Shown: positions 1 to 14,222 of the stretch, one piece after another
Layout: the number at the start of each line of letters is the position of its first letter
How positions within the stretch are numbered: the stretch's first letter is position 1
NCBI RefSeq assembly: GCF_009856865.1
Contig: NZ_WVUD01000004.1
Span: 62,001-126,000, forward strand
Length of the DNA stretch: 64,000 nt
Reading direction: 5' to 3'
Origin: Solidesulfovibrio aerotolerans
Lineage (GTDB): Bacteria; Desulfobacterota; Desulfovibrionia; Desulfovibrionales; Desulfovibrionaceae
Position numbers and translations under genes: made by a program
Notes under the pieces: model-generated
The model's database searches: none
The model's input: only the letters and a program-made list of their open reading frames with translations
What the model was told of the DNA's origin: nothing

Positions 1-272
1 CCCGCTGCAAGGCGGCCGACGGGTCCACGACCTTTTACTGGGTCTATCTGGAGTGGAGCAAAAAGCGCGGCCAGTGGCTGCGCAACTACAGCCTGGAACT
101 GGCCGCCCCGGACGATGAGATCTATTTTACCCGGCTGGTTCCCGGCCAGTTGGGCCGGGCCGGAATGGCTGCCGGCAAGCTGCTGGGGCAGTTGGGCTCA
201 CGCCTGCGCGAAGCGGCCGCCGGCCGCCCGGCGGGCCAGGACCGCCAAGGCTTGCAAAGCCCTGGTCTTTGA
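1..272 (+). CDS. C-terminal part of an unidentified protein (5' end outside window)
   Basis: An open frame (codons from base 3) runs in from the window edge and stops at TGA 270-272, giving about 89 residues. It begins with an aromatic stretch (FYWVYLEWSKKRGQW) and ends in an Ala/Gly/Arg-rich tail. The composition is protein-like and a terminator follows, so I take it as the real end of a gene. I do not recognise the family. Because the next genes concern lipid and exopolysaccharide synthesis, a membrane-associated role is possible but unproven. Confidence 0.5.
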   Translation, partial: RCKAADGSTTFYWVYLEWSKKRGQWLRNYSLELAAPDDEIYFTRLVPGQLGRAGMAAGKLLGQLGSRLREAAAGRPAGQDRQGLQSPGL

Positions 273-398: not shown

Positions 399-1682
399 AT
401 GAGACTGCGCCAACGCTGCGATCAATTCAATGCCCTGCACTCCCAAATTTCGGCCCAGGGCATCAATCCCTATTTTCGCCCTATTGCCAAGTCCTGGGGC
501 GCCGAGGTCGAGATTGGCGGCAAGCGCCTGGTCATGATCGGCTCCAACGACTACCTGGGCTTTAGCCACGACCCCCGGGTCATGGACGCCTCGGCCAAGG
601 CCGTCTACCAGTGGGGCACCGGCCCTGGCGGCTCCCGCTTTTTAAGCGGCAATATGGTGCTGCACCATCTGCTGGAAGAGCGCCTGGCCGCTTTTGTGGG
701 CAAGCGCAGCGCCGTGGTCCACGTCACCGGGTTTAGCACCAACCTGGGCGCACTGGGCGTGTTGGTCATGCCCAGCGATACGGTGCTGTGCGACCGCGAA
801 AACCACGCCAGCATTTTCGAGGGTGTCAAAAACACCAAGGCCCGGCTGTCCACCTTCGCCCACAACGACGCCGCCCATGCCCTGGCCCGCGTGGAGGCCA
901 TCAAGGCCAACCGCCCGGACAACGACCTGTTCCTGGTCACCGAGGGCGTGTTCAGCATGTCCGGCGAGCTGGCCCCCCTGGACGAGATCGCGGCCGTCAA
1001 GGACGCCCATCCCGACGTGATCTTCTACCTCGACGACGCCCATGGCCTGGGCGTTTTTGGCCGGGGCGGACGCGGCAGCGCGGATCATTTCCGCATCACG
1101 GACAAAGTCGATTTCATCATGGGCACGTTTAGCAAGTCCATGGCCTCCATCGGCGGGTTTATCGCCTCCGACGACGAGGACATGCTGCGCTATCTGCGCT
1201 ACCAGTCGCGCACCCAGATTTTCTCGGCCGCCCTGCCGGCCGCCAATACCGTGGCCGTGCTCACCTGCATCGATATCCTGGAGCGCGAACCCGAGCGCGT
1301 GGACCGGCTCCACGAAGTCACCGGGCGCATGCGCCAGGCCTACAAGTCCATCGGACTTCGCATCGGGGCCTCGTCCTCGCCGATCATTCCCATCATCATC
1401 GGTTCCGACGAGAAGGCCTTCCAGTTCTCCCAGGCCCTGTTCGAGGCCGGGGTATTCGCCTTGCCGGCCGTCTACCCGGCCGTGCCGCGCGGGCAGGCGC
1501 TTATTCGTACCGCCTACATGAGCACCCACCAGGATCGCCAGCTCGATTTCGTGCTGGAGGTTCTCGACCGCCTGGCCAAGGAGTTCCGCATCCGTGAATG
1601 CGACATCGAGGACGAGCCGCAGCCAGCTGACGGCGACGATGAAGGCGAAGCCGCGGCCAAGTCCAAGCTGTCCTATCTGTAA
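399..1682 (+). CDS. Alpha-oxoamine synthase, serine palmitoyltransferase-like (PLP-dependent)
   Basis: 427 residues, fold type I PLP enzyme of the AONS/KBL/SPT family, which condenses an amino acid with an acyl thioester and releases CO2. Visible marks: SNDYLG near 49-54, the glycine-rich GTGPGGSRFLSG near 73-84, the ring-stacking His136 in DRENHAS, Asp212 and His215 in LDDAHG, and the Schiff-base lysine Lys246 in GTFSKSMASIGGF. The TFSKS/ASIGGFIA context and the downstream FSAALP...EPERV segment look more like serine palmitoyltransferase than like BioF or Kbl. An acidic tail of about 30 residues follows the domain. No biotin genes are nearby; instead a tripartite ABC exporter and a GNAT-like acyltransferase follow, so a long-chain base or aminoketone product is inferred. 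A CqsA-like signal synthase is the main alternative. Confidence 0.85.
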   Translation: MRLRQRCDQFNALHSQISAQGINPYFRPIAKSWGAEVEIGGKRLVMIGSNDYLGFSHDPRVMDASAKAVYQWGTGPGGSRFLSGNMVLHHLLEERLAAFVGKRSAVVHVTGFSTNLGALGVLVMPSDTVLCDRENHASIFEGVKNTKARLSTFAHNDAAHALARVEAIKANRPDNDLFLVTEGVFSMSGELAPLDEIAAVKDAHPDVIFYLDDAHGLGVFGRGGRGSADHFRITDKVDFIMGTFSKSMASIGGFIASDDEDMLRYLRYQSRTQIFSAALPAANTVAVLTCIDILEREPERVDRLHEVTGRMRQAYKSIGLRIGASSSPIIPIIIGSDEKAFQFSQALFEAGVFALPAVYPAVPRGQALIRTAYMSTHQDRQLDFVLEVLDRLAKEFRIRECDIEDEPQPADGDDEGEAAAKSKLSYL

Positions 1683-1747
1683 GCAGGACACCGAGTTGCG
1701 AGAACCGACAGACGCCCTGGTACGCCGAGGGGCTCTGGTGATCTGAT

Positions 1748-3001
1748 ATGGCCATAGGAAAACGGAAAAAAATTACAGTTGCCGAGCTGGACCGCATCCG
1801 TCGGCGGGGTGCGGGGCCGTTGCGGTACTACGATCTCGTGCTCGTCAGCATACGCGAGGTCTTGCGCAAGCGACGCCGCTATATCGGCGTCCTTGCCTCT
1901 ATTGCCCTGGGCATGGCGGGATTTATCGTCATTATCACCATGGGCAACGACCTGAAGAAAAATTTTAACAACGACCTCGATCTGCTGGGCGGCGCGACCA
2001 TCATGAACGCCATGTTCGAGCAGATCCAGCTCGAGCGCCAGGAGTGGTTTCGCGAACGCACACTGGCGGCCATCGGCCGCATCCCGGGCGTGCTCGACAC
2101 CACCAAGGTGGCGCTCAAAGCCAGTGCCGTGACCACGTGGCACGACCGGCTCTTCGGCTTTAATCTCGTGGGCTGCGAAGCCAACTACTGGAAGGTCTTT
2201 TCCTTTAATGCCACGGTCGGGCGGCTGTTTGACCAGCAAGACGTTGACGCCGGTGCCCGGGTCTGCGTCGTCGGTGCCGACCTGGCCCGCCAGATGTTTG
2301 GCCAGGAGGACAAGGGACTGGGGCAGATCTTGTCCATCGACGACAATCTCTATACTGTGGTCGGCATCCTCGGCGGCGTGCGCGCCGGAGACCGCAGCCA
2401 GTTTGTTTTTTTGCCCATCACCACGGCCCTGGCCAGGGTGGGCGGTGTCTCCCAGCCGTACAGTTGCTATATCCGTTGCGCCACCTGGGACGACGTGGCC
2501 ACGGTGGCGGCGGCGGTGCCCGGGGTGGTCAAGGCCAACCAGCCGGACCGGGGCCTGCGGGTCAATGTGGCCTGGGAGCCGCTGAAGCAGGTGCAGCGTA
2601 TTTTCTGGTGGGTGGAGCTTTTCATCTACAGTTCCATCGTGGCCACCATGATCCTTGGCGGCTTTGGCATCTGGAACATCATGATGGCCACCGTGACCAG
2701 CCGCACCCGGGAAATCGGGTTGAAAAAAGCCATGGGGGCGCTCGATTCCGACATCCTCTACCAATTTCTCTTCGAGGCCCTGTGCGTGACCCTGTCGTCG
2801 TCGGTCTTTGGCGTCATTCTGGGCCGTATCGGCATCGAATACATGAGCCGCATGCTGGGAACGCGCCCGCCCGAGGGCATGTTTGTGCTGTGCCTGCTCA
2901 TGGGCCTGGCCTTTGCCGCCATTCTCGGCGTTGGCGCGGGACTGTATCCCTCCATCCGGGCCAGCCGGATGCAGGTCGTGGACGCCATGCGTTATGAGTA
3001 A
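1748..3001 (+). CDS. ABC transporter permease, MacB/FtsX family
   Basis: 417 residues with the MacB layout: one N-terminal membrane helix (about residues 45-66), a long periplasmic domain (about 67-285) and three C-terminal helices. The cytoplasmic loop SRTREIGLKKAMGA between helices 2 and 3 is the family signature. The ATPase is a separate protein whose start overlaps this stop by 8 bp, so they are translated together. Proteins of this type do not form a transport channel; they couple ATP hydrolysis to periplasmic movements that drive export through TolC. The outer-membrane protein and adaptor follow, completing the complex. Confidence 0.88.
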   Translation: MAIGKRKKITVAELDRIRRRGAGPLRYYDLVLVSIREVLRKRRRYIGVLASIALGMAGFIVIITMGNDLKKNFNNDLDLLGGATIMNAMFEQIQLERQEWFRERTLAAIGRIPGVLDTTKVALKASAVTTWHDRLFGFNLVGCEANYWKVFSFNATVGRLFDQQDVDAGARVCVVGADLARQMFGQEDKGLGQILSIDDNLYTVVGILGGVRAGDRSQFVFLPITTALARVGGVSQPYSCYIRCATWDDVATVAAAVPGVVKANQPDRGLRVNVAWEPLKQVQRIFWWVELFIYSSIVATMILGGFGIWNIMMATVTSRTREIGLKKAMGALDSDILYQFLFEALCVTLSSSVFGVILGRIGIEYMSRMLGTRPPEGMFVLCLLMGLAFAAILGVGAGLYPSIRASRMQVVDAMRYE

Positions 3002-3698
3002 CCAATACGACATTGCCGATGACAACGCCCTTGTCATCGACATCAATAACCTGACCAAGACCTACCAGACCGGCGCAGGCGGCATTTCGGTGCTTAAGGA
3101 TGTCAATCTCCATGTGCGCCGGGGCGAGATGGTGGCGGTCATGGGGCCGTCGGGGTCGGGCAAATCCACCCTGCTGTTTATCCTGGGCCTTTTCCAGCCA
3201 CCCAGCACCGGCGGCTACAAAGTGGCCGGGGTTGACGTTTTGTCACTGTCCCGTGACCAGCAGGCGATATTTCGTCGGGAGATGCTGGGATTTGTTTTCC
3301 AATCCTGCGATCTGCTCGAAAACTCAACCGTCTATGAGAATCTTGAGTTGCCGTTGATCTATGCCGGTGTGCGCCGCAGGGAGCGGCCAGACAGGATACG
3401 TGAGGCGCTTGGCATGGTTAACCTTGAGCACCGGCTCCATCAGCCGTCCAACCGCCTGTCCGGCGGCGAGCGGCAGCGGGTATCCATTGCCCGGGCGCTG
3501 GTCAATGAACCGGAATTTATTTTGGCAGATGAGCCCACCGGACAACTTGACCGGGAAAACAGCCTCCGTGTATTAGAGTATTTTACAAAGATCACGGAAG
3601 AAGCGCGAACGGCCATGGTCGTGGTCACCCACGACAACATGACGGCCGAACACTGCACCAGAAAATGCGTCCTTACGGACGGGTATTTAAACGGGTAA
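2994..3698 (+). CDS. ABC transporter ATP-binding protein, MacB/LolD type
   Basis: 234 residues. Walker A GPSGSGKST at 51-59, signature LSGGERQRVS and Walker B with catalytic Glu (FILADEPTGQLD) are intact. The start ATG at 2994 lies inside the last codons of the permease gene (8-bp overlap); earlier in-frame codons would add a non-homologous leader, so this start is preferred. It is the motor for the adjacent permease in a MacB-type exporter. Confidence 0.92.
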   Translation: MSNQYDIADDNALVIDINNLTKTYQTGAGGISVLKDVNLHVRRGEMVAVMGPSGSGKSTLLFILGLFQPPSTGGYKVAGVDVLSLSRDQQAIFRREMLGFVFQSCDLLENSTVYENLELPLIYAGVRRRERPDRIREALGMVNLEHRLHQPSNRLSGGERQRVSIARALVNEPEFILADEPTGQLDRENSLRVLEYFTKITEEARTAMVVVTHDNMTAEHCTRKCVLTDGYLNG

Positions 3699-3718
3699 CG
3701 CTCAACGGGGAGGAGCGC

Positions 3719-5401
3719 ATGGCCAGGAAACTGAGCTATCGGCAGGGGATGCCGGCGTCCGGGGGGGACGTCTCGGGCCGCGCGTTTGCGGCTGTGTTGT
3801 TGCGTATTGGCGCTTTGGCGCTGGTTTGCACGGTGGTTTTGGGGGCCGCCCTGCCAGCCGTTGCCGCTCCCGGTGATCGCTACACCAAAGACAAGGTCAA
3901 GGGCGCTTCCACTGGGACCGCTGAAACGCCCAAGCCTTTTTCTGCCGCTGCTCCGGCCGCCGCACCTGCTGCGGCGGGCGACGACCCGGCACCGAGTTTT
4001 TCCAAGGCAGCCGGGGGGGTTGCCCTGGGGGCCACGGTGCTCAAAAACCCGGCCGATTTTAACGAGTGCGTGCGCGTGGCCCTGGCCCAGTCGCCCTTGC
4101 TCACGAAAAGTTCCATTGAGATTGAATCCAAGCGCCTGGATGTCGGGGATGCCTATTCCCAGTATATCCCCACCATCATCATGAGCACGACGTTTTATTT
4201 GCGTCTGCCGGAATACGAAAATACTGCGGCGGCATCCACCTGGTCCAATGTCCTTTCGAATGCCTCGTCCAACCCGGCCCAGAACCTGTCCAATTCCGTT
4301 TCTGCTGCCAACGCGATCTATGCGGGCAACTCCCTCAACCGGGATCGCAAAAAATACGACCTGAGCTTTTCCACCGGGGCCTGGAACCCGCTTCTGACCG
4401 CCTTTGACGTCCAAGCCAAAAAGGAAATGGTCAATATCGCCGTTCTGTCCCATTTGAAGGTTATCGACCAGGGGCTCAAACGCCTGGGGTTCACCTATCT
4501 CCAGATCGGCATGGTTGATTCCGTAATCCGCATGGCCAAGGAGAAGGAAGACCTGGCCCAGAAAAATCTTGAATACGTCAAGACCAGGGCTGGCCTTGGA
4601 CAAGGGGCCCAGTTGGACGTGCGCATCGCTGAAACCAAGATCAATCTGTCCCGGGCCGAAGCCGAGAAGATGCGCACCACCAAAAGCGTGCTCCTGGATG
4701 AACTGAAGTTTATCCTGGGTGTACCCTTTGTGCAAAAAGTCGAAGTGGCCACCAACGACGTTGCCCGTCAGGTGCTCGAAGACTTCAGCCCGGCCAGCGT
4801 CACCGACGAAAGACTGAAAAAACACTCTTTCCAACTGCGTATCCTTGAATACGAAAAAGCGTTGCAGAAAAAAAGCATCGCCCTGTCCTACATCCACTTT
4901 CTGCCGACGTTTTCGTTCGGTTTCACCTCGGTCTCGACGCTGAGCAACAACAACTACAAGGACGACACCTCCTCCCTGCCGTTCATGTATCCCAACCTGA
5001 CGCTGAACATGCCATTTGACTGGTGGACCAAAGGACGCGATGTCAGCCGCCAGTACAAAAAGATGGCCCAGCTCAACGTTGAAGGGCGCAATCTTGAATT
5101 CTCGCTGATGAGCCAGTTCCAGCAGTCCCTGGCCAAGCTGCGCGCCGCTGTCTCCGAGGTCAAATTCGCCGAATCCCAAGTGGAGCTGCAAAAGCTCACC
5201 GTGCAGCAGGCCCAGTTCCGTTTTGACGCCGGCCAGGTCGAATACGACTCCATTGTCGCAGCTATGACCGCGTATCTCGACAGTAAACAGGCATTGATCG
5301 GCAAGCAGTACGAGCGCGATTCCGCTATGCTCGAAGTTCGTTCCCTGTGCGGCGATTTCCAGGATCGCTACATCAACGCAACTGTTATGGAGAACATCTA
5401 A
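3719..5401 (+). CDS. TolC-family outer-membrane efflux protein
   Basis: 560 residues. A hydrophobic segment with an Ala-rich cleavage region (ending AALPAVAA, near residue 50) acts as signal peptide, followed by a Pro/Ala-rich linker and two outer-membrane efflux repeats rich in heptad-like coiled coil (around residues 260-330 and 450-530). The long N-terminal Pro/Ala linker is unusual for TolC. The start at 3719 has GGGGAGGAG just upstream; an earlier ATG at 3665 lies inside the ATPase gene. It provides the trans-periplasmic and outer-membrane duct for the MacB-like exporter. Confidence 0.85.
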   Translation: MARKLSYRQGMPASGGDVSGRAFAAVLLRIGALALVCTVVLGAALPAVAAPGDRYTKDKVKGASTGTAETPKPFSAAAPAAAPAAAGDDPAPSFSKAAGGVALGATVLKNPADFNECVRVALAQSPLLTKSSIEIESKRLDVGDAYSQYIPTIIMSTTFYLRLPEYENTAAASTWSNVLSNASSNPAQNLSNSVSAANAIYAGNSLNRDRKKYDLSFSTGAWNPLLTAFDVQAKKEMVNIAVLSHLKVIDQGLKRLGFTYLQIGMVDSVIRMAKEKEDLAQKNLEYVKTRAGLGQGAQLDVRIAETKINLSRAEAEKMRTTKSVLLDELKFILGVPFVQKVEVATNDVARQVLEDFSPASVTDERLKKHSFQLRILEYEKALQKKSIALSYIHFLPTFSFGFTSVSTLSNNNYKDDTSSLPFMYPNLTLNMPFDWWTKGRDVSRQYKKMAQLNVEGRNLEFSLMSQFQQSLAKLRAAVSEVKFAESQVELQKLTVQQAQFRFDAGQVEYDSIVAAMTAYLDSKQALIGKQYERDSAMLEVRSLCGDFQDRYINATVMENI

Positions 5402-5402
5402 C

Positions 5403-6350
5403 ATGATACTGCGCGTCGCGCTCCTGGCTGCCGGCATCGTGTTGTCCGGACCCTGCGCCGTCCTGGCCCAGGCCCCGGCTGCGCCGGCTGCCCAGCCTGA
5501 AAGCGCCGAGCGAGCTTCGTTTCGTCCGGCGGATATCAGCTTTTCCGGCAAGCTCTACAGCCCGGTCAAGCTCGCGATCTTTTTGCCCTACACCGCCAAG
5601 GTACTGACGGTGACCGGCCATATCGGGCAAAAGGTCAAACGCGGCGACATTCTGGCCACGTACGAGATCCCGCTGGAAACGCGCATGGACGAGAAGACCA
5701 AGCTCTCCCCGGCCACCATCAAGGATTTGGAACACAAGTTGGCTCTGGCCGACAAGGAAATTGACCGGCTGTCAGCCAAGAGCCGCGAGCTGGAAGCCAT
5801 GAGCCAGCGCAATATGACCTCGCAGCAGGCCATCTCGATGAACGCCAAGGAAATCGAGGTGTACCGCAAAGATAAGGCGGCTGTCAGTGAACAACTGGCC
5901 TTGACCCGCGACTTGCTCAATGACCGGGTGGAATTGGCCGAAGATCATTTCGGCAAAGGTGCCGGTATCGGCAAAGTACCCAAAGAAGGCATCATCAAGG
6001 CACCCAATGACGGTTTCGTCCTGTGGATGAACCCGGAGCTTCGGGCCGGGGTCAAGCTGGCTAAAGAAGCCGAGCTTTTTCAGGTCGGATCGCTCAATCC
6101 CATGATTATCCGGGCCCAGGTCCACGAGATCGAAGCGCAAAAGCTCAGAGAAGGGCAGTCAGCCACGGTCACGTTTGAATCCATTCCGGGCAAAAAATAT
6201 ACAGCCACCGTGTCGCGCATCCCCTGGGCTCCCATCCCGGCGGCGTTGCAACAGCCGTCCTATTACGAGATTGAGCTGACCATCCCCAACCCGGATGCCG
6301 AGCTTAAGGAAGGTCTCAAGGTCCAGATTACCATCCAGCCCGGCAAGTAG
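5403..6350 (+). CDS. Periplasmic adaptor (HlyD/MacA-type membrane-fusion protein)
   Basis: 315 residues, starting one base after the TolC-like stop. An N-terminal signal peptide (MILRVALLAAGIVLSGPCAV) is followed by a split lipoyl/biotinyl-like domain (residues about 45-85 and 190-220), a helical hairpin rich in Lys, Glu and Ala (about 95-165) and a beta-barrel domain. This is the adaptor layout linking an inner-membrane ABC unit to TolC. The hairpin is short, which fits a compact adaptor. Confidence 0.83.
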   Translation: MILRVALLAAGIVLSGPCAVLAQAPAAPAAQPESAERASFRPADISFSGKLYSPVKLAIFLPYTAKVLTVTGHIGQKVKRGDILATYEIPLETRMDEKTKLSPATIKDLEHKLALADKEIDRLSAKSRELEAMSQRNMTSQQAISMNAKEIEVYRKDKAAVSEQLALTRDLLNDRVELAEDHFGKGAGIGKVPKEGIIKAPNDGFVLWMNPELRAGVKLAKEAELFQVGSLNPMIIRAQVHEIEAQKLREGQSATVTFESIPGKKYTATVSRIPWAPIPAALQQPSYYEIELTIPNPDAELKEGLKVQITIQPGK

Positions 6351-6357
6351 CTCCGCC

Positions 6358-7497
6358 ATGACCAATTCTCCGCTCGTTGTTGCGGCTGTCGCCAGCCCGG
6401 CTGATCTGGATGCCTTTATCCGGTTTCCCTGGGAAATCTATAGGGACGATCCCTTGTGGGTGCCGCCGCTGATTCCCATGCAACGGGATTTTCTTGATCG
6501 GCGCAAAGGTCCGTTTTTCGAGTTCGGCCAAGCTGAATATTTTCTGGCTCGCCGGGATGGCCGGGTGGTCGGGCGCATTTCGGCCCACACAAGCGGCCTG
6601 TACGAACAGCACCACGATACGGAAACCGGCTTTTTCGGGTTTTTTGAAAGCGTTAACGAGCAGGCCGTGGCCGACGCCCTGCTTGAGGCCGCTGCCGCCT
6701 GGGCGCGGGAGCGCGGCAAGATCCGCATTCACGGACCGCTGTCCTTTGGCATCTACGACGAAGTGGGCCTTTTGGTTGACGGCTTTGATTCGCCGCCTTC
6801 CATGATGCAGACGCATAACCCGCCGCACTATGAGACCTTGCTGACCAACTGGGGGCTGACCAAAACCTACGACTGGTTCGCCTACCGCATCAGCCGCAAG
6901 CCCGGCATGGATGCGGCCAAGCTGGCCAGGCTTCGCGACTCCATCCTCACCCGCCAGAAGTGCTCCATCCAGCCCATTCCCCGCAAGGAATTCGCCAAGC
7001 GCGGTCCCCAGATCAAAGAACTTTTCAATGACATCTGGAGCAAGAACTGGGGGCATGTGCCCTTGACCGACAAGCAGTACGAAGACCTTTTTGTGACGCT
7101 CCAGCCGCTGGTGCGACCGGACCTGGAAAGCATGATCCTGGACGGTGACGAGATTGTGGCCTTTGCCGTGGTGTCGCCGGACATGAATCGGTCAGTCAAA
7201 AAGTTTAACGGCAAGTTTGGGTTGTGGCAAAAGCTGCAACTGCTCTGGGATTGCCGGGTCAAGCCGCTCACCCACTGCCGGGCCATAATCATGGGCGTTG
7301 CCCGTACCCATCAGTGGAAACGGCTGCACCATGCCATCATCATCAACATCATCGTCAATTTCCTGGTCAACCACCCGAAGATGGAATACTGCGACTGTTC
7401 GCTCATCCCGGAATCCCTGGAACAGTGGAACAAGACGCTGACGGATTTTGGCGGCGAGCGCTACAAGGTGTTCCGCCTCTATGATCGAGCCATCTGA
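6358..7497 (+). CDS. GNAT-like acyltransferase, candidate N-acyltransferase of the oxoamine pathway
   Basis: 379 residues. The N-terminal segment (WEIYRDDPLWVPPL, then YFLARRDGRVVGRISA and GFFGFFE) and GPLSFGIYDEVGLLVDGF match a large family of GNAT-fold proteins of uncertain function common in Deltaproteobacteria. ATG 6358 is chosen because an in-frame ATG at 6295 lies inside the adaptor gene and would add non-family residues. Genes for GNAT-type acyltransferases occur beside serine palmitoyltransferase in some bacteria, where one acts as bacterial ceramide synthase; that role here is inference from position. A simple acetyltransferase or a structural GNAT-like protein is also possible. Confidence 0.6.
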   Translation: MTNSPLVVAAVASPADLDAFIRFPWEIYRDDPLWVPPLIPMQRDFLDRRKGPFFEFGQAEYFLARRDGRVVGRISAHTSGLYEQHHDTETGFFGFFESVNEQAVADALLEAAAAWARERGKIRIHGPLSFGIYDEVGLLVDGFDSPPSMMQTHNPPHYETLLTNWGLTKTYDWFAYRISRKPGMDAAKLARLRDSILTRQKCSIQPIPRKEFAKRGPQIKELFNDIWSKNWGHVPLTDKQYEDLFVTLQPLVRPDLESMILDGDEIVAFAVVSPDMNRSVKKFNGKFGLWQKLQLLWDCRVKPLTHCRAIIMGVARTHQWKRLHHAIIINIIVNFLVNHPKMEYCDCSLIPESLEQWNKTLTDFGGERYKVFRLYDRAI

Positions 7498-9133
7498 TCG
7501 GGGGATCCGCCGCTTCGATTGGTGGCTGGTCGCCTGCATTTCCCTGGGCGTTTATGCCCTGGCCCACCGGCTGGGGCTGGCCTCGCCCTTTGTCATCAAC
7601 GACGACGCGCGCCAGCAACTCTTCTGGATGGCCCGCTGGCTCGATCCCGCCCTCTATCCGCCGGATTTGCTGTCCGACTACGCCGCTGCCTATGTGCCGG
7701 CCGGGGTCAAGGCCTTGTATTTCGTGGCGGTCAAAGGCTTTGGCCTGGAGCCGCTCTTTGTTTCCAAGCTCGTGGCCGGGGCGCTGTTTGTTCTCCTGGC
7801 TCTGGCCCTTTTCGGCCTTGGCGTGGCGCTTGAAGGGCCAACCCTTGGTTGGTTTGCCGCGGCCATGGCTTGGCTTATGCCGTATTTCCTCAAAAACATT
7901 TCCGGCGGTCTGTCCCGGGCCTTTGCCGGACCACTTTTGGCGCTGTTTGTGCTCGCCTGGATGCGCCGCTGCGGCCGTGGCATGGCCTGGGTCTTGCTCC
8001 TTGAGGCCGTAACCATCCCCTACATCGCCATCTTGTGCGCCGGGTGCGCCTGCCTGGACGCTGTGATGGCCCGCCTGACCGACCGGCCGGCCGCTCCCTT
8101 TCCCGCCCGTTCCAGCCACGGGCTGGCCCTGCTGGCTGCCGCGGCCATGGTCATCGGCCAAAACGTAACGCTGGCGGCCAAGGGTTTCGGGCCGCTGGTC
8201 GGCCGGGCTGCCCTGGCCGCCGGGCCGGAATTCAGCGCCGCCGGCCGCTTGGAACTCTATCCGCTGCCCAATCCGTTTTTTGATCTGTTCTACTGGCCCC
8301 TGGAGAGCATAGGGCTTTTTCTGGAATGGGGCCTTTTCCCGGGCATCGTGTCCCTGGCGGTCCTGGCTCCTGTCCTGTGGTACGGTGCCCGCAGCACTCC
8401 CTGGCCGCAACTGGCGGCCAAGGTCCGGCCCCTGGCCATGCTGTTGGCCGGTTCCCTGGCCCTCTATGTCCTGGCCCGGGCCATTGCCCTGGTCTTGTTC
8501 GTCCCGGACCGTTACATCTGCTATACCATCAATTTGTGCTATGCCCTGGTCTTGGCCGTGTGTCTGCGCCATGCCCTGGCCCCGCTGCTGACCCGGCGCT
8601 GGGCCGGTGCAGCCCTGGTCCTCCTGGCCGCCGGCCTTGGCGTGTGGCGTTTAACCAACGTCGGCCTCTACGATTACCGGGCCGATGCGCCGCTTTATGC
8701 CGCCGTGGCGGCGCTGCCGGCCGACGCCCTTGTGGCGGGCAATCCCAAGGATATGGACAATGTGCTGACCTTTGGCCGGCGCAATGTGCTCGCTTCCTAC
8801 GAGCTGGCCCATGCCTGGAGCGTGGGCTTGTGGAAGTCCATGCTGCCGCGTCTGGCCCATCAGGCCGAAGCCTATTATGCCAAGGACGCCACTGTGGTGC
8901 GGGAATTCGCCAAAGCCTACGGAGTGGGCTGGATTGTGGTTCGCGAGGCGGATTTTGAGCCGGCGGCCATTGCCAGGGGGCCGCTTTTTGCCCCCTTTGA
9001 CCGCCGCATCCAGGAACTGGCCGGGGCACCGGGCAATTTCGTCCTTCTTAACGAGGCGCAATTTCCCTATACCAGCCCGGAGCCGGGGGTGCGGCTGGTG
9101 GATGTGCGCCCTGCCGCGCAGCCCGCGCCCTGA
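7481..9133 (+). CDS. Polytopic membrane protein, GT-C glycosyltransferase-like
   Basis: 550 residues, start ATG 7481 overlapping the preceding stop by 17 bp. About 10-11 hydrophobic helices fill residues 15-415, followed by a soluble C-terminal part of about 120 residues. Immediately after the first helix comes an acidic motif (FVINDDARQQLFW), placed where GT-C enzymes keep catalytic aspartates in the first periplasmic loop. The next gene makes polyprenyl-phosphate-linked sugar, the usual donor for GT-C enzymes, so the pair is functionally sensible. No exact family is recognised. Confidence 0.6.
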   Translation: MIEPSDRGIRRFDWWLVACISLGVYALAHRLGLASPFVINDDARQQLFWMARWLDPALYPPDLLSDYAAAYVPAGVKALYFVAVKGFGLEPLFVSKLVAGALFVLLALALFGLGVALEGPTLGWFAAAMAWLMPYFLKNISGGLSRAFAGPLLALFVLAWMRRCGRGMAWVLLLEAVTIPYIAILCAGCACLDAVMARLTDRPAAPFPARSSHGLALLAAAAMVIGQNVTLAAKGFGPLVGRAALAAGPEFSAAGRLELYPLPNPFFDLFYWPLESIGLFLEWGLFPGIVSLAVLAPVLWYGARSTPWPQLAAKVRPLAMLLAGSLALYVLARAIALVLFVPDRYICYTINLCYALVLAVCLRHALAPLLTRRWAGAALVLLAAGLGVWRLTNVGLYDYRADAPLYAAVAALPADALVAGNPKDMDNVLTFGRRNVLASYELAHAWSVGLWKSMLPRLAHQAEAYYAKDATVVREFAKAYGVGWIVVREADFEPAAIARGPLFAPFDRRIQELAGAPGNFVLLNEAQFPYTSPEPGVRLVDVRPAAQPAP

Positions 9134-9183: not shown

Positions 9184-10170
9184 ATGCCGGATATGCTTTC
9201 CATCATCATTCCACTGTACAATGAGCAGGACAACGTCGAGCCGCTCTATGCCAAGCTTGATGCCGTGCTGCGCGACATGGGCCATGTCTACGAGATCATT
9301 TGCATCAATGACGGTTCCAGCGACGACACCCGGGAGCGCATCGATGCTCTGGCCGAGCGCGACAAGCGGCTGCGCGTGGTCCATCTGCGCCGCAATTTCG
9401 GCCAGACTCCGGCCATGATGGCCGGCATCGACCTGGCCCGGGGCGATATTCTCATTCCCATGGACGGCGATCTGCAAAACGATCCGGCCGATATCCCCAA
9501 GCTGTTGGCCAAACTCGATGAAGGGTTTGATGTTGTCTCGGGCTGGCGCAAGGACCGCAAAGACAACCCCATAAAGCGCAATCTGCCCAGCCGCATGGCC
9601 AACCGTCTTATCTCGTTCATATCCGGGGTCCATCTGCACGACTACGGCTGTTCGCTCAAGGCCTACCGGCGCGATATCATAAAGGGTGTGAAGCTGTACG
9701 GCGAGATGCACCGGTTTATCCCCATCCATGCCGCCTGGCAGGGCGCGCGGGTCACGGAAGTGGGCGTTACCCACCATCCGCGCATCCACGGCGAATCCAA
9801 ATACGGCATGGAACGCACGATAAAGGTCATCCTCGACCTCATGACCGTCAAATTCCTCGACAAATATGCCTCCAAGCCCATGTATCTGTTCGGCGGCTTT
9901 GGTCTGGCCAGCCTTGCCGTGTCCGGGTTTTTTTTCCTGTTTATGCTCTATTGCAAATTTTTCCTGGATAAGAGCTTTATTGCAACGCCACTGCCACTGG
10001 GTGTGGTCATGTTCATGTTGATCGGCATTATGGCCATCTTCATGGGCCTTATCGCTGAAATTCTCATGCGCACCTACCACGAGTCCCAGGACAAGCCGAC
10101 CTACATTGTGGACTGTACCCGCAACTGCAAGGAAGAGGATCGGTCGTGTGCGGAATCTGCGGTTTCGTAG
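9184..10170 (+). CDS. GT2 polyprenyl-phosphate glycosyltransferase (DPM1/GtrB/ArnC-like)
   Basis: 328 residues. The GT2 domain starts at once (LSIIIPLYNEQDNVEPLY), with INDGSSDDT and the metal-binding MDGDLQNDP motif; two hydrophobic helices near residues 230-300 anchor it in the membrane. This is the DPM1/GtrB architecture, which moves a sugar from a nucleotide donor to undecaprenyl phosphate on the cytoplasmic face. The flipped product would feed a GT-C enzyme such as the upstream gene. Its end overlaps the next start by 25 bp. GGCGGGAG precedes the ATG. Confidence 0.87.
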   Translation: MPDMLSIIIPLYNEQDNVEPLYAKLDAVLRDMGHVYEIICINDGSSDDTRERIDALAERDKRLRVVHLRRNFGQTPAMMAGIDLARGDILIPMDGDLQNDPADIPKLLAKLDEGFDVVSGWRKDRKDNPIKRNLPSRMANRLISFISGVHLHDYGCSLKAYRRDIIKGVKLYGEMHRFIPIHAAWQGARVTEVGVTHHPRIHGESKYGMERTIKVILDLMTVKFLDKYASKPMYLFGGFGLASLAVSGFFFLFMLYCKFFLDKSFIATPLPLGVVMFMLIGIMAIFMGLIAEILMRTYHESQDKPTYIVDCTRNCKEEDRSCAESAVS

Positions 10171-12020
10171 GCACCGGCGGACCAGAAGCCCTTGCCGCCA
10201 TGAACGCCTCCCTGGCCCGACGCGGCCCGGACGGCGAAGGGTTTTTCCATGACGCCCCGGCCGGGGTGCATCTGGCCCACCGTCGGTTGGCGATTATCGA
10301 CCTTGCAGGCGGAGCCCAGCCCATGGCCACGGTCGATGGGCAACTCGTGGTCACCTACAACGGCGAGATTTATAACCACGGGCAACTGCGCCAGGAACTG
10401 ACGGCGCGCGGCCATCGGTTCGTTTCCGATCACAGCGATACGGAAATCCTGCTCCACGGCTGGCGGGAGTGGGGGCCGGAGCTGCCCGCCCGCTTAAACG
10501 GCATGTGGGCCTTTGCCCTCTACGACAAGGCGCGGGGCGAGCTGTTCTGTTCCCGGGACCGCTTTGGCAAAAAGCCCTTTTTCTATGCGGCCCGGCCGGG
10601 TTTTTTTGCCTTTGCCTCGGAGCTTTCCAGCCTCGTGGCCCATCCGTTGCTGGTGGCGCGCACCATTTCCCGAACCAGCCTGCGCAAATATTTCGCCTAC
10701 GGCTTTATCCCCGGCCCAAATGCCCTGTATGCCGGCACGCACAAGCTTGAGGGTGGTGCGAATCTGCTCCTGGACGTCCGCGATCCGGTCCCGCGTCTGC
10801 GCCGCTGGTGGACGTTTCGTCTGGAGCCGGACCACGCCCTGGCCTCGGCCCCGCCGGCGGGGGTGGCCGAGCGCGTCCTCACACTCCTGGATGCAGCCGT
10901 GGCCCGCCGGCTCATGGCCGATGTGCCACTCGGCATCTTTCTCTCCGGCGGTGTGGATTCCTCGGCCGTAACCGCCCTGGCCGCCCGACATGCTCCGGAC
11001 ATCCGGGCCTTTTCCATCGGTTTTGACGACCCGGCCTTTGATGAATCGGCCAAGAGCCGTCTGGCCGCCAAAGCTTTGGGTGTCGCCCGCCACGAAGCCC
11101 GGCTCTCCCTGCAGGCTGCCCTGGCCCTTATGCCCGAGATCGTCGGCCGGTTGGACGAACCCATGGGCGACGTGTCGCTCATTCCCACAGCACTTTTGTG
11201 TCGCGAAACCCGCCGCCACGTCACCGTGGCCCTTGGCGGCGACGGCGCGGACGAGCTTTTCGCCGGCTACGACCCCTTTAAGGCCGTGCGGGCCGCCGAG
11301 TGGTACAGCCGACTCATGCCCAAACCCCTGCACCGCGCCCTGGCTTTACTCGCAGCCCGGTTGCCGGTGGGGCATGGCTACATGGCCGCCAGCTTTAAAC
11401 TGAATCGCTTCCTGCGCGGCCTGTCCCAACCGCCAAAGCTCTGGAATCCGGTCTGGCTCGGCCCCCTGGCCCCGGGGGAGGTGGCTGATCTTTTTGCCGA
11501 GCCCATCGATCCTGAGGACCTCTACAGCGAGGCCATCGCCATTTTTGAGTCCGGCGAATCCCGGGACATGGTGGATCGCACCATGGAATTTTACACCCGG
11601 CTCTATCTGCAAGACGACATCCTGGTCAAAACCGACCGGGCCGGCATGATGCATTCCCTGGAAGTGCGCGCCCCGTTTTTGGATATCGAACTGGTCGATT
11701 ACGTGCGCACCATCCCGGCCGGGCTTAAATTCCACCGGGGAACGACCAAATATATTCTTAAAAAGGCCCTGGAGGCGGTCCTGCCGCACCAGATCATCTA
11801 TCAGAAAAAGCAGGGTTTCGGCGTGCCGGTCGGGCGCTGGCTGGCCGAAGGCATGCTGCCCATGGGCGCGCCTTCGCCGGTTGAGGCCGGGCTTGACGCC
11901 GCCGCCATCACGGCCAAAATCACCGGACACCGGGCCGGCCGGGCCGATCATCGCCTGTTTCTGTGGAACCTTTGGGTGCTGCGCCATATGGACCTGGGTG
12001 GAGGCCGTCTTGCCGTTTGA
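10146..12020 (+). CDS. asnB: Asparagine synthase-type glutamine amidotransferase (first of three)
   Basis: 624 residues. The start is GTG 10146, fixed because processing must expose Cys2 (CGICGF) as the glutaminase nucleophile. An N-terminal class II glutamine amidotransferase domain (about 2-215) is joined to an ATP-dependent synthetase domain with the PP-loop FLSGGVDSSAV. Such enzymes make asparagine or, in polysaccharide loci, amidate carboxylated sugars. Location among glycosyltransferases favours the second role, but the substrate cannot be read from sequence. Confidence 0.88.
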   Translation: MCGICGFVGTGGPEALAAMNASLARRGPDGEGFFHDAPAGVHLAHRRLAIIDLAGGAQPMATVDGQLVVTYNGEIYNHGQLRQELTARGHRFVSDHSDTEILLHGWREWGPELPARLNGMWAFALYDKARGELFCSRDRFGKKPFFYAARPGFFAFASELSSLVAHPLLVARTISRTSLRKYFAYGFIPGPNALYAGTHKLEGGANLLLDVRDPVPRLRRWWTFRLEPDHALASAPPAGVAERVLTLLDAAVARRLMADVPLGIFLSGGVDSSAVTALAARHAPDIRAFSIGFDDPAFDESAKSRLAAKALGVARHEARLSLQAALALMPEIVGRLDEPMGDVSLIPTALLCRETRRHVTVALGGDGADELFAGYDPFKAVRAAEWYSRLMPKPLHRALALLAARLPVGHGYMAASFKLNRFLRGLSQPPKLWNPVWLGPLAPGEVADLFAEPIDPEDLYSEAIAIFESGESRDMVDRTMEFYTRLYLQDDILVKTDRAGMMHSLEVRAPFLDIELVDYVRTIPAGLKFHRGTTKYILKKALEAVLPHQIIYQKKQGFGVPVGRWLAEGMLPMGAPSPVEAGLDAAAITAKITGHRAGRADHRLFLWNLWVLRHMDLGGGRLAV

Positions 12021-12945
12021 TTCCCTGGAATACACGACCCTTCGGGTGTTGCGCCGGTTCTTTTTTACCGAAAAGCGGCTGGCTGCCTGGGGCAGCCGGC
12101 TGCCGTACTACCGCGTCAACCAGGGGGTGGTCGATCCTGTGGCCATTGCCGACGCCTACGCCGCTGATCTCGGCCGCGCGGGTGTGGCAATCCCGGGCAA
12201 GCGCATCATCGAAATCGGCTGCGGGTCGGCCAACGGCGCGGGCTATGCTCTCATGGCCCGGGGGGCGGCCTCGGTTATTTGCCACGAACCCTACGCTCGC
12301 CACGACGTGGGCCTGGACGCCAAACATCTGGAAGCCATGGTCCTGGCCCATCCGGGCGTTCCATTTTCCAAGGTGCGCCGGGTGGCCACCCTGGCCGAAC
12401 TGCCCGACGCCGCAGCAGATATCATCGTGTCCAATTCCGTGCTGGAACACGTGGCCGACACCCGGGCGCTTTTTGCCGAGCTGGCCCGCCTGCTCGTCCC
12501 GGGCGGCGTCATGCTCCATCGGGTCGATTACCGCGACCATTTTTTCAAATATCCCTTCCATTTCCTGCTCTATCCTCGGTGGGTCTGGAACTGGTTTTTA
12601 AATCCCGGCGATCTGCCCCGCTGGCGCTACGACGACCATGCCGGCGGTCTGGCCCTGGCCGGCTTTGACGTGTCGGCGCTTTCCTTTGAGCGTGACGCGC
12701 AGGCCTTTGCCGCCGTGGCCGACCGGCTCCACGCCGATTTCAAGCACCGCGACCCTGATATTATGAATATTACCAAAGCGACGTTATTTTGCCTGCGGCG
12801 GCCGGGAGGGGCTTTGCCCCTCCTGGACCTCCCCACCGGGGGGCCGCAGGCCCCCCGGACCCCCCCGGCGGGGGGAGCCATTTGCGCTGCGCCTGATGCG
12901 GACACCGGGAAACAGACTCCTCCGACTGGTAGAGGCAACTCGTGA
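12010..12945 (+). CDS. SAM-dependent methyltransferase (class I) with repeat-encoded C-terminal tail
   Basis: 311 residues. TTG 12010 is preferred because GGAGG lies 5 bp upstream; GTG 11998 is an alternative. Motif I is IIEIGCGSANG, and the class I fold continues to SNSVLEHVADT and the post-motif helices. The core ends around residue 263. The remaining 48 residues (Pro/Gly-rich) are encoded by a GC-rich palindromic repeat and are unlikely to belong to the ancestral enzyme. The stop overlaps the next gene by 4 bp. Probably methylates a sugar or lipid-linked intermediate of the locus. Confidence 0.75.
   Translation: MPFDSLEYTTLRVLRRFFFTEKRLAAWGSRLPYYRVNQGVVDPVAIADAYAADLGRAGVAIPGKRIIEIGCGSANGAGYALMARGAASVICHEPYARHDVGLDAKHLEAMVLAHPGVPFSKVRRVATLAELPDAAADIIVSNSVLEHVADTRALFAELARLLVPGGVMLHRVDYRDHFFKYPFHFLLYPRWVWNWFLNPGDLPRWRYDDHAGGLALAGFDVSALSFERDAQAFAAVADRLHADFKHRDPDIMNITKATLFCLRRPGGALPLLDLPTGGPQAPRTPPAGGAICAAPDADTGKQTPPTGRGNS
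12805..12858. repeat. GC-rich palindromic repeat (two stacked hairpins)
   Basis: Two perfect inverted repeats in tandem: GGAGGGGC/GCCCCTCC (12805-12812, 12816-12823, loop TTT) and CCGGGGGGCC/GGCCCCCCGG (12836-12845, 12849-12858, loop GCA); a third C7/G7 pairing follows to about 12876. It lies inside the 3' coding end of the methyltransferase. The design resembles dispersed palindromes I associate with Desulfovibrio genomes (recollection, not searched). Confidence 0.8.
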
Positions 12946-14219
12946 GCGCTGCCGCCACCAACAACACCCCGGTAAAAAGTTTTGGGGAAGGGAGAGCGCG
13001 AGAGGAAAACCCTTTTTCCCAAAAAGGGTTTCCCTCTCGCAGTCTTCGCCCTCGCAACCTTCTCCTGCTCAATTACGAATATCCGCCCCTCGGCGGCGGG
13101 GCGGGCAATGCCACGGCCAATATGGCCCGGGAGTTGGCCCTGTTGGGCCATCGGGTGCGGGTGGTGACGGCGGCCTTTGCCGGGCAGCCCAGGCGGGACG
13201 TGGTGGATGGGTACGAGTTGTGGCGTATCCCGGCCGTGCGCCGTCAGGCCGATCACTGCTCACCCCTGGAAATGCTGACCTTTTTAGCCAGTGCGCTGGT
13301 TGCCTTGCCCTTTATGCAGGGCCGGTTTCGGGCCGACGCCTGCATCTGCTTTTTCGGCATCCCGTGCGGGCCGGCGGCCTGGCTGCTTAAGGTGCTCTGC
13401 GGCGTGCCCTATATCGTCTCCCTTCGCGGCGGCGATGTGCCGGGCTTTCAGCCCTACGATCTGGCCGGTTACCATCGGGCCACCGGGCCGCTGATCCGCT
13501 TTTTGTGGCGGGGGGCGGCCCATGTCGTGGCCAACAGCCAGGGGCTGGCCGCCCTGGCCCGCACCAGCGCCGGGGCGACACCCATCGCGATGATTCCCAA
13601 CGGCGTGGACACGGCGCGGTTTGCGCCTGCCCCTGGGCCGGTTGGCGCGCCACAGGACGGGCCGGCGGCGGGGTCCGGTCCGATGCAGTTGCTGTTCGTC
13701 GGGCGGGTGGTGCAGCAAAAAGGCCTGGATGTGCTCCTGAACGCCCTGGCCCTGCTGCCGCCCGGACTGGACTACCGCCTGACTCTCGTTGGCGACGGGC
13801 CGTTGCGTCCGGCCCTGGTCGAGCAGGCCGCCCGGCTGGGGCTGGCCGGACGGGTGCGCTTTGCCGGCTGGGCTTCGCGAGAGGACATGCCGGCTGTATT
13901 GCGCGCGGCCGACGTGTTTGTTTTCCCGTCCCGGGACGAGGGCATGCCCAATGCCGTGCTCGAAGCCATGGCCTCGGGACTGCCGGTGGCGGCCACGCGC
14001 ATTTCCGGCAACGAGGAACTGGTGCTTGACGGCCAGACCGGGTTTCTCGTGCCGCCAAACGACGCGAACGCCTTGGCCGTGGTCCTTGCCCGGTTGCTTG
14101 GCGACCGGGCGCTTGGCCGGCGTCTGGGCGCTGCCGGGCGGGAACGGGTGGTGGGGGAGTATTCCTGGCACAGCGTGGCGCAGCGGTATGCCGCACTGTG
14201 CGGCGGGGAAGGGGTCTAG
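12942..14219 (+). CDS. Glycosyltransferase family 4 with repeat-encoded N-terminal extension
   Basis: 425 residues, GTG start in a 4-bp GTGA overlap with the methyltransferase and TAGAGG upstream. The GT4 fold begins only at residue about 40 (RNLLLLNYEYPPLGGGAGNAT); residues before this come from the palindromic repeat at 12998-13040. The nucleotide-sugar half carries VGRVVQQKGLDVLLNAL and the family motif FPSRDEGMPNAVLEAMASG with EX7E spacing. Predicted cytoplasmic retaining transferase of the exopolysaccharide pathway; donor and acceptor unknown. An internal start near residue 36 (no good ribosome site) is less likely. Confidence 0.85.
   Translation: MSAAATNNTPVKSFGEGRAREENPFSQKGFPSRSLRPRNLLLLNYEYPPLGGGAGNATANMARELALLGHRVRVVTAAFAGQPRRDVVDGYELWRIPAVRRQADHCSPLEMLTFLASALVALPFMQGRFRADACICFFGIPCGPAAWLLKVLCGVPYIVSLRGGDVPGFQPYDLAGYHRATGPLIRFLWRGAAHVVANSQGLAALARTSAGATPIAMIPNGVDTARFAPAPGPVGAPQDGPAAGSGPMQLLFVGRVVQQKGLDVLLNALALLPPGLDYRLTLVGDGPLRPALVEQAARLGLAGRVRFAGWASREDMPAVLRAADVFVFPSRDEGMPNAVLEAMASGLPVAATRISGNEELVLDGQTGFLVPPNDANALAVVLARLLGDRALGRRLGAAGRERVVGEYSWHSVAQRYAALCGGEGV
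12998..13040. repeat. 20-bp inverted repeat (large hairpin) inside a gene start
   Basis: Arms 12998-13017 and 13021-13040 pair over 20 bp with one mismatch and a 3-base CCC loop; the core is CCCTTTTT/AAAAAGGG. It follows GGTAAAAAGTTTTGGGGAAGGG, a typical leader of such palindromes in my memory of Desulfovibrio sequences. It is translated as residues of the glycosyltransferase N-terminus. Confidence 0.82.
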
Positions 14220-14222
14220 AGC

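Follow-up and report, generated by a model that had tools for sequence, protein, structure and literature searches.

Gene content and organization of the locus

We examined a 64,000-nucleotide stretch of the Solidesulfovibrio aerotolerans genome (contig NZ_WVUD01000004.1, positions 62,001 to 126,000; hereafter the window), in which seven consecutive open reading frames (ORFs) on the plus strand, spanning window positions 399–9133, combine an alpha-oxoamine synthase with a tripartite exporter, an N-acyltransferase and a GT-C-fold protein. Judged by sequence comparison, the row is probably a sphingolipid-type biosynthesis-and-export locus with its own tripartite exporter.

The first gene (P0001, 399–1682) encodes a 427-residue serine palmitoyltransferase (SPT)-like alpha-oxoamine synthase that matches PF00155 at 152.7 bits. 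It is followed by a 417-residue MacB-type ABC permease with MacB_PCD and FtsX domains (P0002, 1748–3001), an ABC ATPase of the LolD/MacB type (P0003, 2994–3698), a TolC/OEP-type outer-membrane factor (P0004, 3719–5401), a periplasmic adaptor (membrane fusion protein) of the MacA/HlyD type with an N-terminal hydrophobic segment (P0005, 5403–6350), a GNAT-type N-acyltransferase of the YghO/bacterial ceramide synthase (bCerS) family (P0006, 6358–7497) and a GT-C protein of the STT3/ArnT fold, a probable glycosyltransferase (P0007, 7481–9133). The listed ORFs of the ATPase, TolC, GNAT and GT-C genes open at 2883, 3665, 6295 and 7448; starts at 2994 (an ATG), 3719, 6358 and 7481 are more likely from the reading frame and the alignment of relatives. 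With the revised starts, the genes are separated by gaps of 65, 20, 1 and 7 bp and overlap by 8 and 17 bp. A preliminary description of the seven-gene run had named the same families. Its assignments were upheld by the ORFs together with Pfam and structure prediction, and the gene order is kept in relatives.

The synthase groups with serine palmitoyltransferases

The comparison with SPT, BioF and CqsA called for by the preliminary description was made as a PDB sequence search. The best match of the synthase is the Sphingobacterium SPT (3a2b; 313 bits over query residues 3–397), ahead of a BioF/Kbl-type enzyme (8s1y, 254 bits), a cysteate acyltransferase (28eh, 198 bits), BioF (1bs0, 192 bits) and CqsA (2wk8, 105 bits). 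The top NCBIfam model is likewise the Bacteroidetes SPT model NF047600, matched by the window protein at 399.4 bits and by six of six family members; the NCBIfam autoinducer synthase model gave 195 bits against 399 for the SPT model.

We placed the synthase in a tree of 96 rows, comprising 78 of 80 loci from named genomes (two proteins shorter than 300 residues were dropped), the window protein, five family members and 12 references. These named loci, the best 80 among 552 relatives, overlap a second set of 19 relatives' loci used below. The tree is a quick one that carries a long-branch warning (three BioF-side rows included) and leaves CqsA out. The window protein falls on an SPT side of 52 rows (SH-like approximate likelihood-ratio test, SH-aLRT, 96), within a clade of 24 rows (SH-aLRT 99) that we call the exporter clade; the BioF, Kbl and ALAS references lie on the opposite side. 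The SPT side includes E. coli Spt, its sole annotated SPT, and the synthases of loci that join a synthase, a GNAT and a reductase. It also includes a Parabacteroides synthase (L156) that adjoins a diacylglycerol-kinase-family gene; we take this protein to be an SPT from its neighbourhood, its record naming only an aminotransferase-fold enzyme.

Clustering with BioF or Kbl, raised in the preliminary description as the competing outcome, was not seen, nor was a biotin role indicated. The genome carries a separate BioF (C87:36850-37920) that scores 434.7 bits, above the TIGR00858 cut-off of 426.45, and the window synthase reaches 326 bits, below it. We rejected a BioF/Kbl identity on the tree placement and on the distinct BioF elsewhere in the genome.

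The Lys246, His136 and Asp212 reported in the preliminary description are present. Together with H215 and R370 they align with the Sphingobacterium SPT and do not vary across the 24 exporter-clade rows. The same five catalytic residues occur in eight BioF, Kbl and ALAS references, and therefore do not demonstrate SPT activity. A more specific comparison used 15 SPT-diagnostic positions, defined as conserved in 21 SPT-side proteins that we chose by context and near-absent from the eight references. The exporter clade keeps nine of these by majority, is mixed at one and is changed at five; F244, S245, A277, P298 and F353 are kept in all 24 rows. By these residues the protein appears to be an SPT-like enzyme with a consistent clade difference, and the amino acid that it uses could be altered. 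That it would make a long-chain base from some amino acid we regard as very probable.

SPT-side synthases also occur on contigs labelled Thermoplasmatota (L103 10001-11194) and Lokiarchaeota (L104 671-1867), where mis-binning is possible. A Black Sea study reported no archaeal metagenome-assembled genomes (MAGs) with an SPT-type synthase (PMC11334938).

A tripartite exporter accompanies one synthase clade

The four genes behind the synthase make up a complete MacB-type tripartite set, with a MacB_PCD and FtsX permease, an ABC ATPase, an HlyD-type adaptor and a TolC-type channel. Hydrophobic segments at about residues 46–64, 285–315, 340–358 and 377–395 of the permease surround a large MacB_PCD domain, as in the four-helix MacB permease. 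Its best PDB match is MacB (5nik, 104 bits), and the adaptor matches MacA weakly. The full MacB-type exporter of the preliminary description stands in its four components, with the permease and ATPase as separate genes, split as in DevCA or LolCD. The set scores below the NCBIfam cut-offs for MacB (966; permease 103.8 and ATPase 206 bits), DevBCA (DevA 167.2 against 295.8, DevB 36.8 against 129) and LolCDE (LolCE 30.7 against 362.45, LolD 216.1 against 307.75).

Recurrence of the gene order, which the preliminary description had proposed to look for, was found in both the family and the phylum. The order synthase, permease, ATPase, TolC, adaptor is kept in 18 of 19 relatives' loci, and the contig of the 19th stops inside the synthase gene. 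Twenty of the 80 named loci form the exporter clade, with synthases 49–91% identical to that of the window; close matches include those of Desulfovibrio sp. DV (L074, 91%) and Solidesulfovibrio magneticus (L075, 88%). All four exporter genes are present in 18 of these 20 loci; the other two are L080, a 3.2-kb contig that ends after supplying the permease and ATPase, and L090, which ends in the synthase gene. The remaining 60 named loci, which fall outside the clade, gave no permease match on the synthase strand. Among them, L123 (with a BioF-side synthase) has a distant permease–ATPase pair encoded on the other strand. Lone ATPase matches lie 7–10 kb off on the synthase strand in L104, L130, L136 and L149.

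We also scanned 297 genomes of the phylum, scoring at most six first-look candidates per genome, so that an unmatched genome may still hold one. Synthase scores are bimodal, with 12 genomes at 667–797 bits and the next at 484. Permease matches of 496–646 bits occur in the same 12 genomes, on the synthase strand and 78–352 bp away. The profiles (A3, A7 and A1) were built from the exporter clade and high scores within it are expected; only the window genome (G000) among the 12 is a profile row. The point of the scan is that two separately built profiles select the same 12 genomes and adjoining sites within them.

Pairwise distances of the synthase correlate with those of the permease, ATPase and adaptor (r 0.81–0.88, 25 taxa each), and with the GNAT (17 taxa) and GT-C protein (19 taxa) added the range becomes 0.81–0.94; none of 500 permutations reached the observed values in either comparison. 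Common descent alone would also explain this correlation. The GNAT follows in 12 and the GT-C gene in 14 of the 20 named clade loci. Both are sometimes elsewhere, and the pump adjoins in every locus with enough sequence, which makes the pump the most faithful partner of the synthase. We think it likely that the pump carries the product of the locus.

An SPT-exporter row also occurs in a Kiritimatiellae MAG (L088 10001-15420), beyond the Desulfobacterota, by possible horizontal transfer or mis-binning. Related permease–ATPase pairs, with glycosyltransferase-like neighbours, lie in two examined genomes of a genus labelled g36 (L173 about 9598-11500, L174 about 9398-11300). No synthase, TolC or adaptor match was found near these pairs, and in the same two genomes a GNAT adjoins an epimerase at a separate site. 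A protein with a DVEEEGLF motif lies near the g36 pairs and likewise near the SPT-exporter loci L081, L082, L086, L089 and L053.

The N-acyltransferase is a bacterial ceramide synthase relative

Pfam matches the N-ACYLTRANSFERASE of the row (P0006) only weakly, to GNAT (28 bits), and a PDB sequence search returned no significant match (a single one, E 0.91). The GNAT-like label of the preliminary description is borne out and narrowed by its full-length homology to E. coli BL21 YghO (32% over 374 residues, E 3e-63); the remaining ten proteins of the BL21 yghO locus gave no match to P0006. YghO and Caulobacter CC_1154 are described as the acyl-CoA N-acyltransferase needed for dihydroceramide synthesis (PMC9386255).

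Synthase and GNAT tend to occur together. At the cut-offs used in the phylum scan, both occur in 48 of the 297 genomes, the synthase alone in 12, the GNAT alone in 38 and neither in 199 (Fisher 1e-20, a value that ignores relatedness). The corresponding counts are 19, 1, 1 and 38 in 59 relatives; by genus, six have both, one has each alone and 26 have neither (Fisher 3.5e-5). In six GNAT-only genomes checked, a lower-scoring synthase lies 4–17 kb from the GNAT in three (G114, G219, G354) and none was found in three g36 genomes. Every one of the 12 exporter-clade phylum genomes has a GNAT. Synthase, GNAT and a CerR-like protein stand together in 15 of the 60 non-clade named loci, and three more combine synthase and GNAT. 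A GNAT lies within 500 bp of the synthase on the same strand for 29 of 62 synthase hits in the 297 genomes, all among the 50 outside the exporter clade. Within the clade, seven of 12 phylum genomes have it past the exporter genes, 4.35–4.72 kb downstream of the synthase (cut by a contig end in G249). Given this homology and pairing, the GNAT would with high probability N-acylate the long-chain base made by the synthase. The preliminary description had likened the pair to the core of bacterial ceramide synthesis. The two enzymes fit that description, an SPT-side synthase and a bCerS-family GNAT; the third core gene, cerR, was not identified in the genus.

Pairs of a YghO-family GNAT and a CerR-like epimerase occur at L180 9798-12025, L181 about 9274-11600 and L072 6614-8994. 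No synthase stands beside the pair in L180 or L181, and the L072 contig ends directly after it.

Two relatives have additional genes beside the GNAT. In G033 the row reads polyketide synthase (PKS; NMO-KS-AT-ACP-KR-DH, 2431 residues), phosphopantetheinyl transferase (PPTase), GNAT, epimerase, radical SAM protein (opposite strand), synthase, exporter and GT-C (L073 569-10707). In G334 a GNAT-PKS-PPTase cluster lies 56 kb from the synthase (L183 9769-19900). The PPTase matches PF01648 in L073 and has a 36% identical relative in L183, whose PKS is a 48% relative over 1073 residues. A PKS-fed sphingolipid is possible in these two genomes; sphingolipids made through a PKS are known in Pseudomonas (PMC12134224).

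The GT-C protein and the flanking genes

A Pfam search with P0007 gave no match. A structure model built from a 13-sequence alignment (pLDDT 82.9, pTM 0.86; the single-sequence model, at pLDDT 44, was unusable) matches oligosaccharyltransferase in Foldseek (E 1.2e-8) and superimposes on STT3 with a Z score of 21.8 (458 residues, 5.0 Å) and on ArnT with 19.9 (434 residues, 4.8 Å), at about 10% identity. The GT-C-like character given in the preliminary description thus agrees with the predicted fold. All 13 aligned sequences carry an unchanged NDDxRQQ motif near the first loop.

Fifty bp behind the GT-C gene begins a family-2 glycosyltransferase (GT2) gene (P0008, 9184–10170, plus strand), which continues the row in the window genus and also in two nearby genera. 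The protein is of the ArnC/PgfS type, has two C-terminal hydrophobic segments, scores under the NCBIfam cut-offs and may be a polyprenyl-phosphate-sugar synthase. With a GT-C model and an adjoining GT2, periplasmic transfer of a sugar from polyprenyl phosphate onto a lipid is plausible; whether P0007 itself glycosylates the product we rate as evenly balanced.

Directly 3' of the row (window 10146-16127) lie genes for two asparagine-synthase-type proteins, a methyltransferase and a family-1 glycosyltransferase, and the row looks as if it runs on into a surface-polysaccharide-type gene cluster. In L081 a B12-binding radical SAM protein with DUF4070 lies downstream of the GT-C gene (18539-20098; Pfam was run on L081 only). 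Near three other exporter-clade loci, ORFs of similar appearance start at L082 18829, L083 18539 and L088 15680, and the protein is possibly a lipid-modifying enzyme.

On the 5' side, the window opens with the C-terminal part (1–272, plus strand) of a conserved 179-residue protein that begins upstream of it and that precedes the synthase gene in 15 of 19 relatives' loci. Beyond it lie a 147-residue protein and a 552-residue PMT_2-like membrane protein (25.9 bits; Pfam cut-off 26.1). The 147- and 179-residue proteins (L009 15293-16272, ending at window position 272) are conserved across the genus and in two other genera; a Pfam search gave no clear family for either. Farther out, L009 encodes a divergent family-2 glycosyltransferase on the minus strand (10540-11610) with a start like VVMPAYNA; similar-looking genes are found close to many SPT-exporter loci (L046, L048, L079, L081-L084, L089).

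A proposed route from synthesis to the cell surface

From these components we infer a route that starts in the cytoplasm, where the synthase would make a 3-oxo long-chain base by condensing a fatty acyl thioester with serine or a closely similar amino acid, and the YghO/bCerS-family GNAT would N-acylate this base to an (oxo)ceramide. Keto-reduction would fall to an enzyme not linked to the locus. The (oxo)ceramide would cross to the outer leaflet and there receive a sugar from the GT-C enzyme, to which the adjoining GT2 would probably supply the polyprenyl-phosphate sugar; the product would perhaps be a glycosylated (oxo)ceramide. The split MacB-type pump, with its adaptor and TolC channel, would then carry the lipid out of the inner membrane and deliver it to the outer membrane or the cell surface, much as DevBCA-HgdD does with heterocyst glycolipids.

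In its fullest form the proposal is that of a dedicated trans-envelope sphingolipid exporter. Throughout one SPT clade of the Desulfobacterota, which also appears in at least one Kiritimatiellae MAG, a MacB-type system would have evolved into a constant partner, and a single row of genes would connect base synthesis, N-acylation, GT-C glycosylation and export to the outer membrane or surface. This system would be an alternative to the Lpt-like route proposed in Caulobacter, possibly for a new class of glycosylated (oxo- or 1-deoxy-)ceramides. The evidence tilts slightly in favour of this larger claim.

By what route bacterial sphingolipids leave the inner membrane for the outer one is an open question, and a complete candidate pump tied to a synthase makes it testable. 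Some of these sulfate reducers are cultivable. If the proposal is true, the locus would provide genes for the sphingolipids attributed to anaerobic Desulfobacterota, and an SPT-like gene directly followed by a MacB-type permease would be a genomic marker for producers.

Contrary evidence and alternative explanations

Several observations weigh against the proposed reading of the locus. The synthase scores under the NCBIfam SPT cut-offs (NF047600 399.4 of 640, NF047599 331.9 of 500, NF047603 228.5 of 670 bits), and the exporter clade replaces N83 by S or C, S247 by A (19 of 24 rows; the window protein keeps S), A290 by C, N355 by L and S372 by A. The GNAT lies away from the exporter in five of the 12 phylum genomes (on another contig in four, 56 kb off in G334) and is not beside it in six of 18 complete named loci. 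A relative of the permease (377–399 bits) occurs without this synthase in seven genomes of genus g36, in two of which, those examined, an ATPase adjoins; parts of the module therefore exist apart. This pump lineage can serve something else, and g36 is the main evidence against a strict lipid cargo.

Searches for further pathway genes gave little. AcpR and AasR of the rhodobacterial Spt system, searched with E. coli queries, gave no match of at least 45 bits in the 20 clade loci, where a weaker small ACP could escape. A profile built from seven CerR-like proteins found no CerR-grade match in the window genus, the best being 154 bits (G000), with values above 140 in two of 14 genus genomes; genomes that have no such synthase reach 224 bits. 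The genus matches are at the level of the short-chain dehydrogenase/reductase (SDR) superfamily, and a diverged or unrelated reductase is possible. Strong matches occur only in G033 (455 bits) and G016 (433 bits), both profile rows and both beside a GNAT. CerR-like matches in the 20 named clade loci are those of L085 (28%, 3' of GT-C) and L076 (28%, 8 kb upstream on the opposite strand). Of eight loci with the GNAT apart from the synthase (L070, L071 and L180-L186 without L183), L180 and L181 alone have a good CerR-like partner, and neither has an SPT-clade synthase. A 341-residue SDR encoded 3.9–10.5 kb upstream of the synthase in five of 14 genus genomes (G001, G003, G004, G009, G011) scores only 76.7–79.3 bits. 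In Caulobacter, CerR is periplasmic and SPT and bCerS are cytoplasmic (PMC11087976). The product at our locus could remain in its oxidised form, or an unrelated enzyme could reduce it.

Two alternatives, both of which we consider unlikely, change one part of the proposal. The synthase might use alanine, glycine or cysteate, so that the locus, its other steps unchanged, would make a 1-deoxy-(oxo)ceramide or a sulfonolipid-like lipid. The five SPT-diagnostic positions altered throughout or in most of the clade point this way, as does the co-abundance that, in the Black Sea study, ties 1-deoxyceramides and sulfono-1-deoxyceramides to Desulfobacterota and/or Bacteroidota (PMC11334938); the best solved-structure match is nevertheless an SPT, well ahead of the cysteate acyltransferase. 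The pump, for its part, might be a co-transcribed hitch-hiker or a protective system for a drug, glycan or lipoprotein, with the sphingolipid leaving otherwise, for example by an Lpt-like route. Drugs, glycolipids, lipopeptides and peptides are all cargoes of MacB-type pumps (PMC8277102), the related g36 pairs without this synthase sit near glycosyltransferase-like genes, and a Caulobacter study proposes LptC2/F2/G2 for sphingolipid transport, which it did not investigate (PMC11324152). Against such a role, the pump stands directly behind the clade synthase in all 12 phylum genomes and in every named locus with enough sequence, the other 60 named loci have no permease match on the synthase strand, and the GNAT and GT-C genes are sometimes elsewhere or not found.

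Readings that do away with the sphingolipid are far less probable. CqsA and LqsA belong to the alpha-oxoamine synthases, and a pump would suit a secreted alpha-aminoketone signal whose amine the GNAT modifies. We judged a CqsA-type signal synthase unlikely on score (105 against 313 bits in the PDB search, 195 against 399 with NCBIfam), and the GNAT partner is of the ceramide-synthase family; such a signal system seems very improbable. Least credible is a housekeeping BioF- or Kbl-type enzyme that happens to adjoin an unrelated pump. It has in its favour the shared superfamily and the sub-threshold TIGR00858 score, and it is opposed by the separation from BioF and Kbl in the tree, by the genome's own BioF above the cut-off and by the co-occurrence of the synthase with a ceramide-synthase relative.

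Comparison with known systems

The sphingolipid-export locus proposed here resembles several known systems in part. With the Sphingobacterium SPT and the NF047600 family its synthase shares the best sequence match, the pyridoxal phosphate (PLP) and substrate residues and the side of the tree; it differs from the Bacteroidetes/delta-proteobacterial SPT subgroup in falling below the cut-offs, in forming its own 24-row clade with five changed positions and in its link to an exporter. The GNAT is like bCerS/YghO (CC_1154, yghO) in its full-length homology and its genomic association with SPT-type synthases, and unlike it in lying behind exporter genes rather than beside the synthase. The spt-acpR-cerR-aasR-bcerS loci of Caulobacter and E. 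coli likewise join SPT to the bCerS family with envelope-transport genes nearby. Their transport genes are of the Lpt type (LptC2/F2/G2), whereas the window has a MacB-type tripartite pump, and the clade loci searched gave no AcpR, AasR or clear CerR.

Among exporters, DevBCA-HgdD of Anabaena, the heterocyst glycolipid exporter and a MacB-type precedent for glycolipid export (PMC8277102), shares a separate MacB-type permease and ATPase, an adaptor and a TolC-like channel. The window set differs in scoring below the DevA and DevB cut-offs, in carrying the TolC gene within the row and in being joined to an SPT-like gene. MacAB-TolC has the same permease core (MacB_PCD and FtsX) and the same adaptor and TolC families; the window permease and ATPase are unfused, and the permease reaches 103.8 bits against the cut-off of 966. 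The PfSgaAB PKS-SPT cluster of Pseudomonas fluorescens MYb115 finds a parallel in the relatives G033 and G334, which have a PKS beside the GNAT; PfSgaAB is a two-gene cluster, and the window row has no PKS.

Desulfobacterota were predicted earlier to produce sphingolipids in the Black Sea study, whose main text contains no "operon" and one general "transporter" (PMC11334938). The preliminary description had supposed an SPT with its own exporter to be undescribed, and among the literature matches listed we likewise found no account of an SPT locus with a MacB-type exporter. The synthesis families, SPT-like and bCerS, are of an already known kind; as far as we searched, the variant seen here, with a tripartite exporter constantly linked and a GT-C protein often present, is undescribed.

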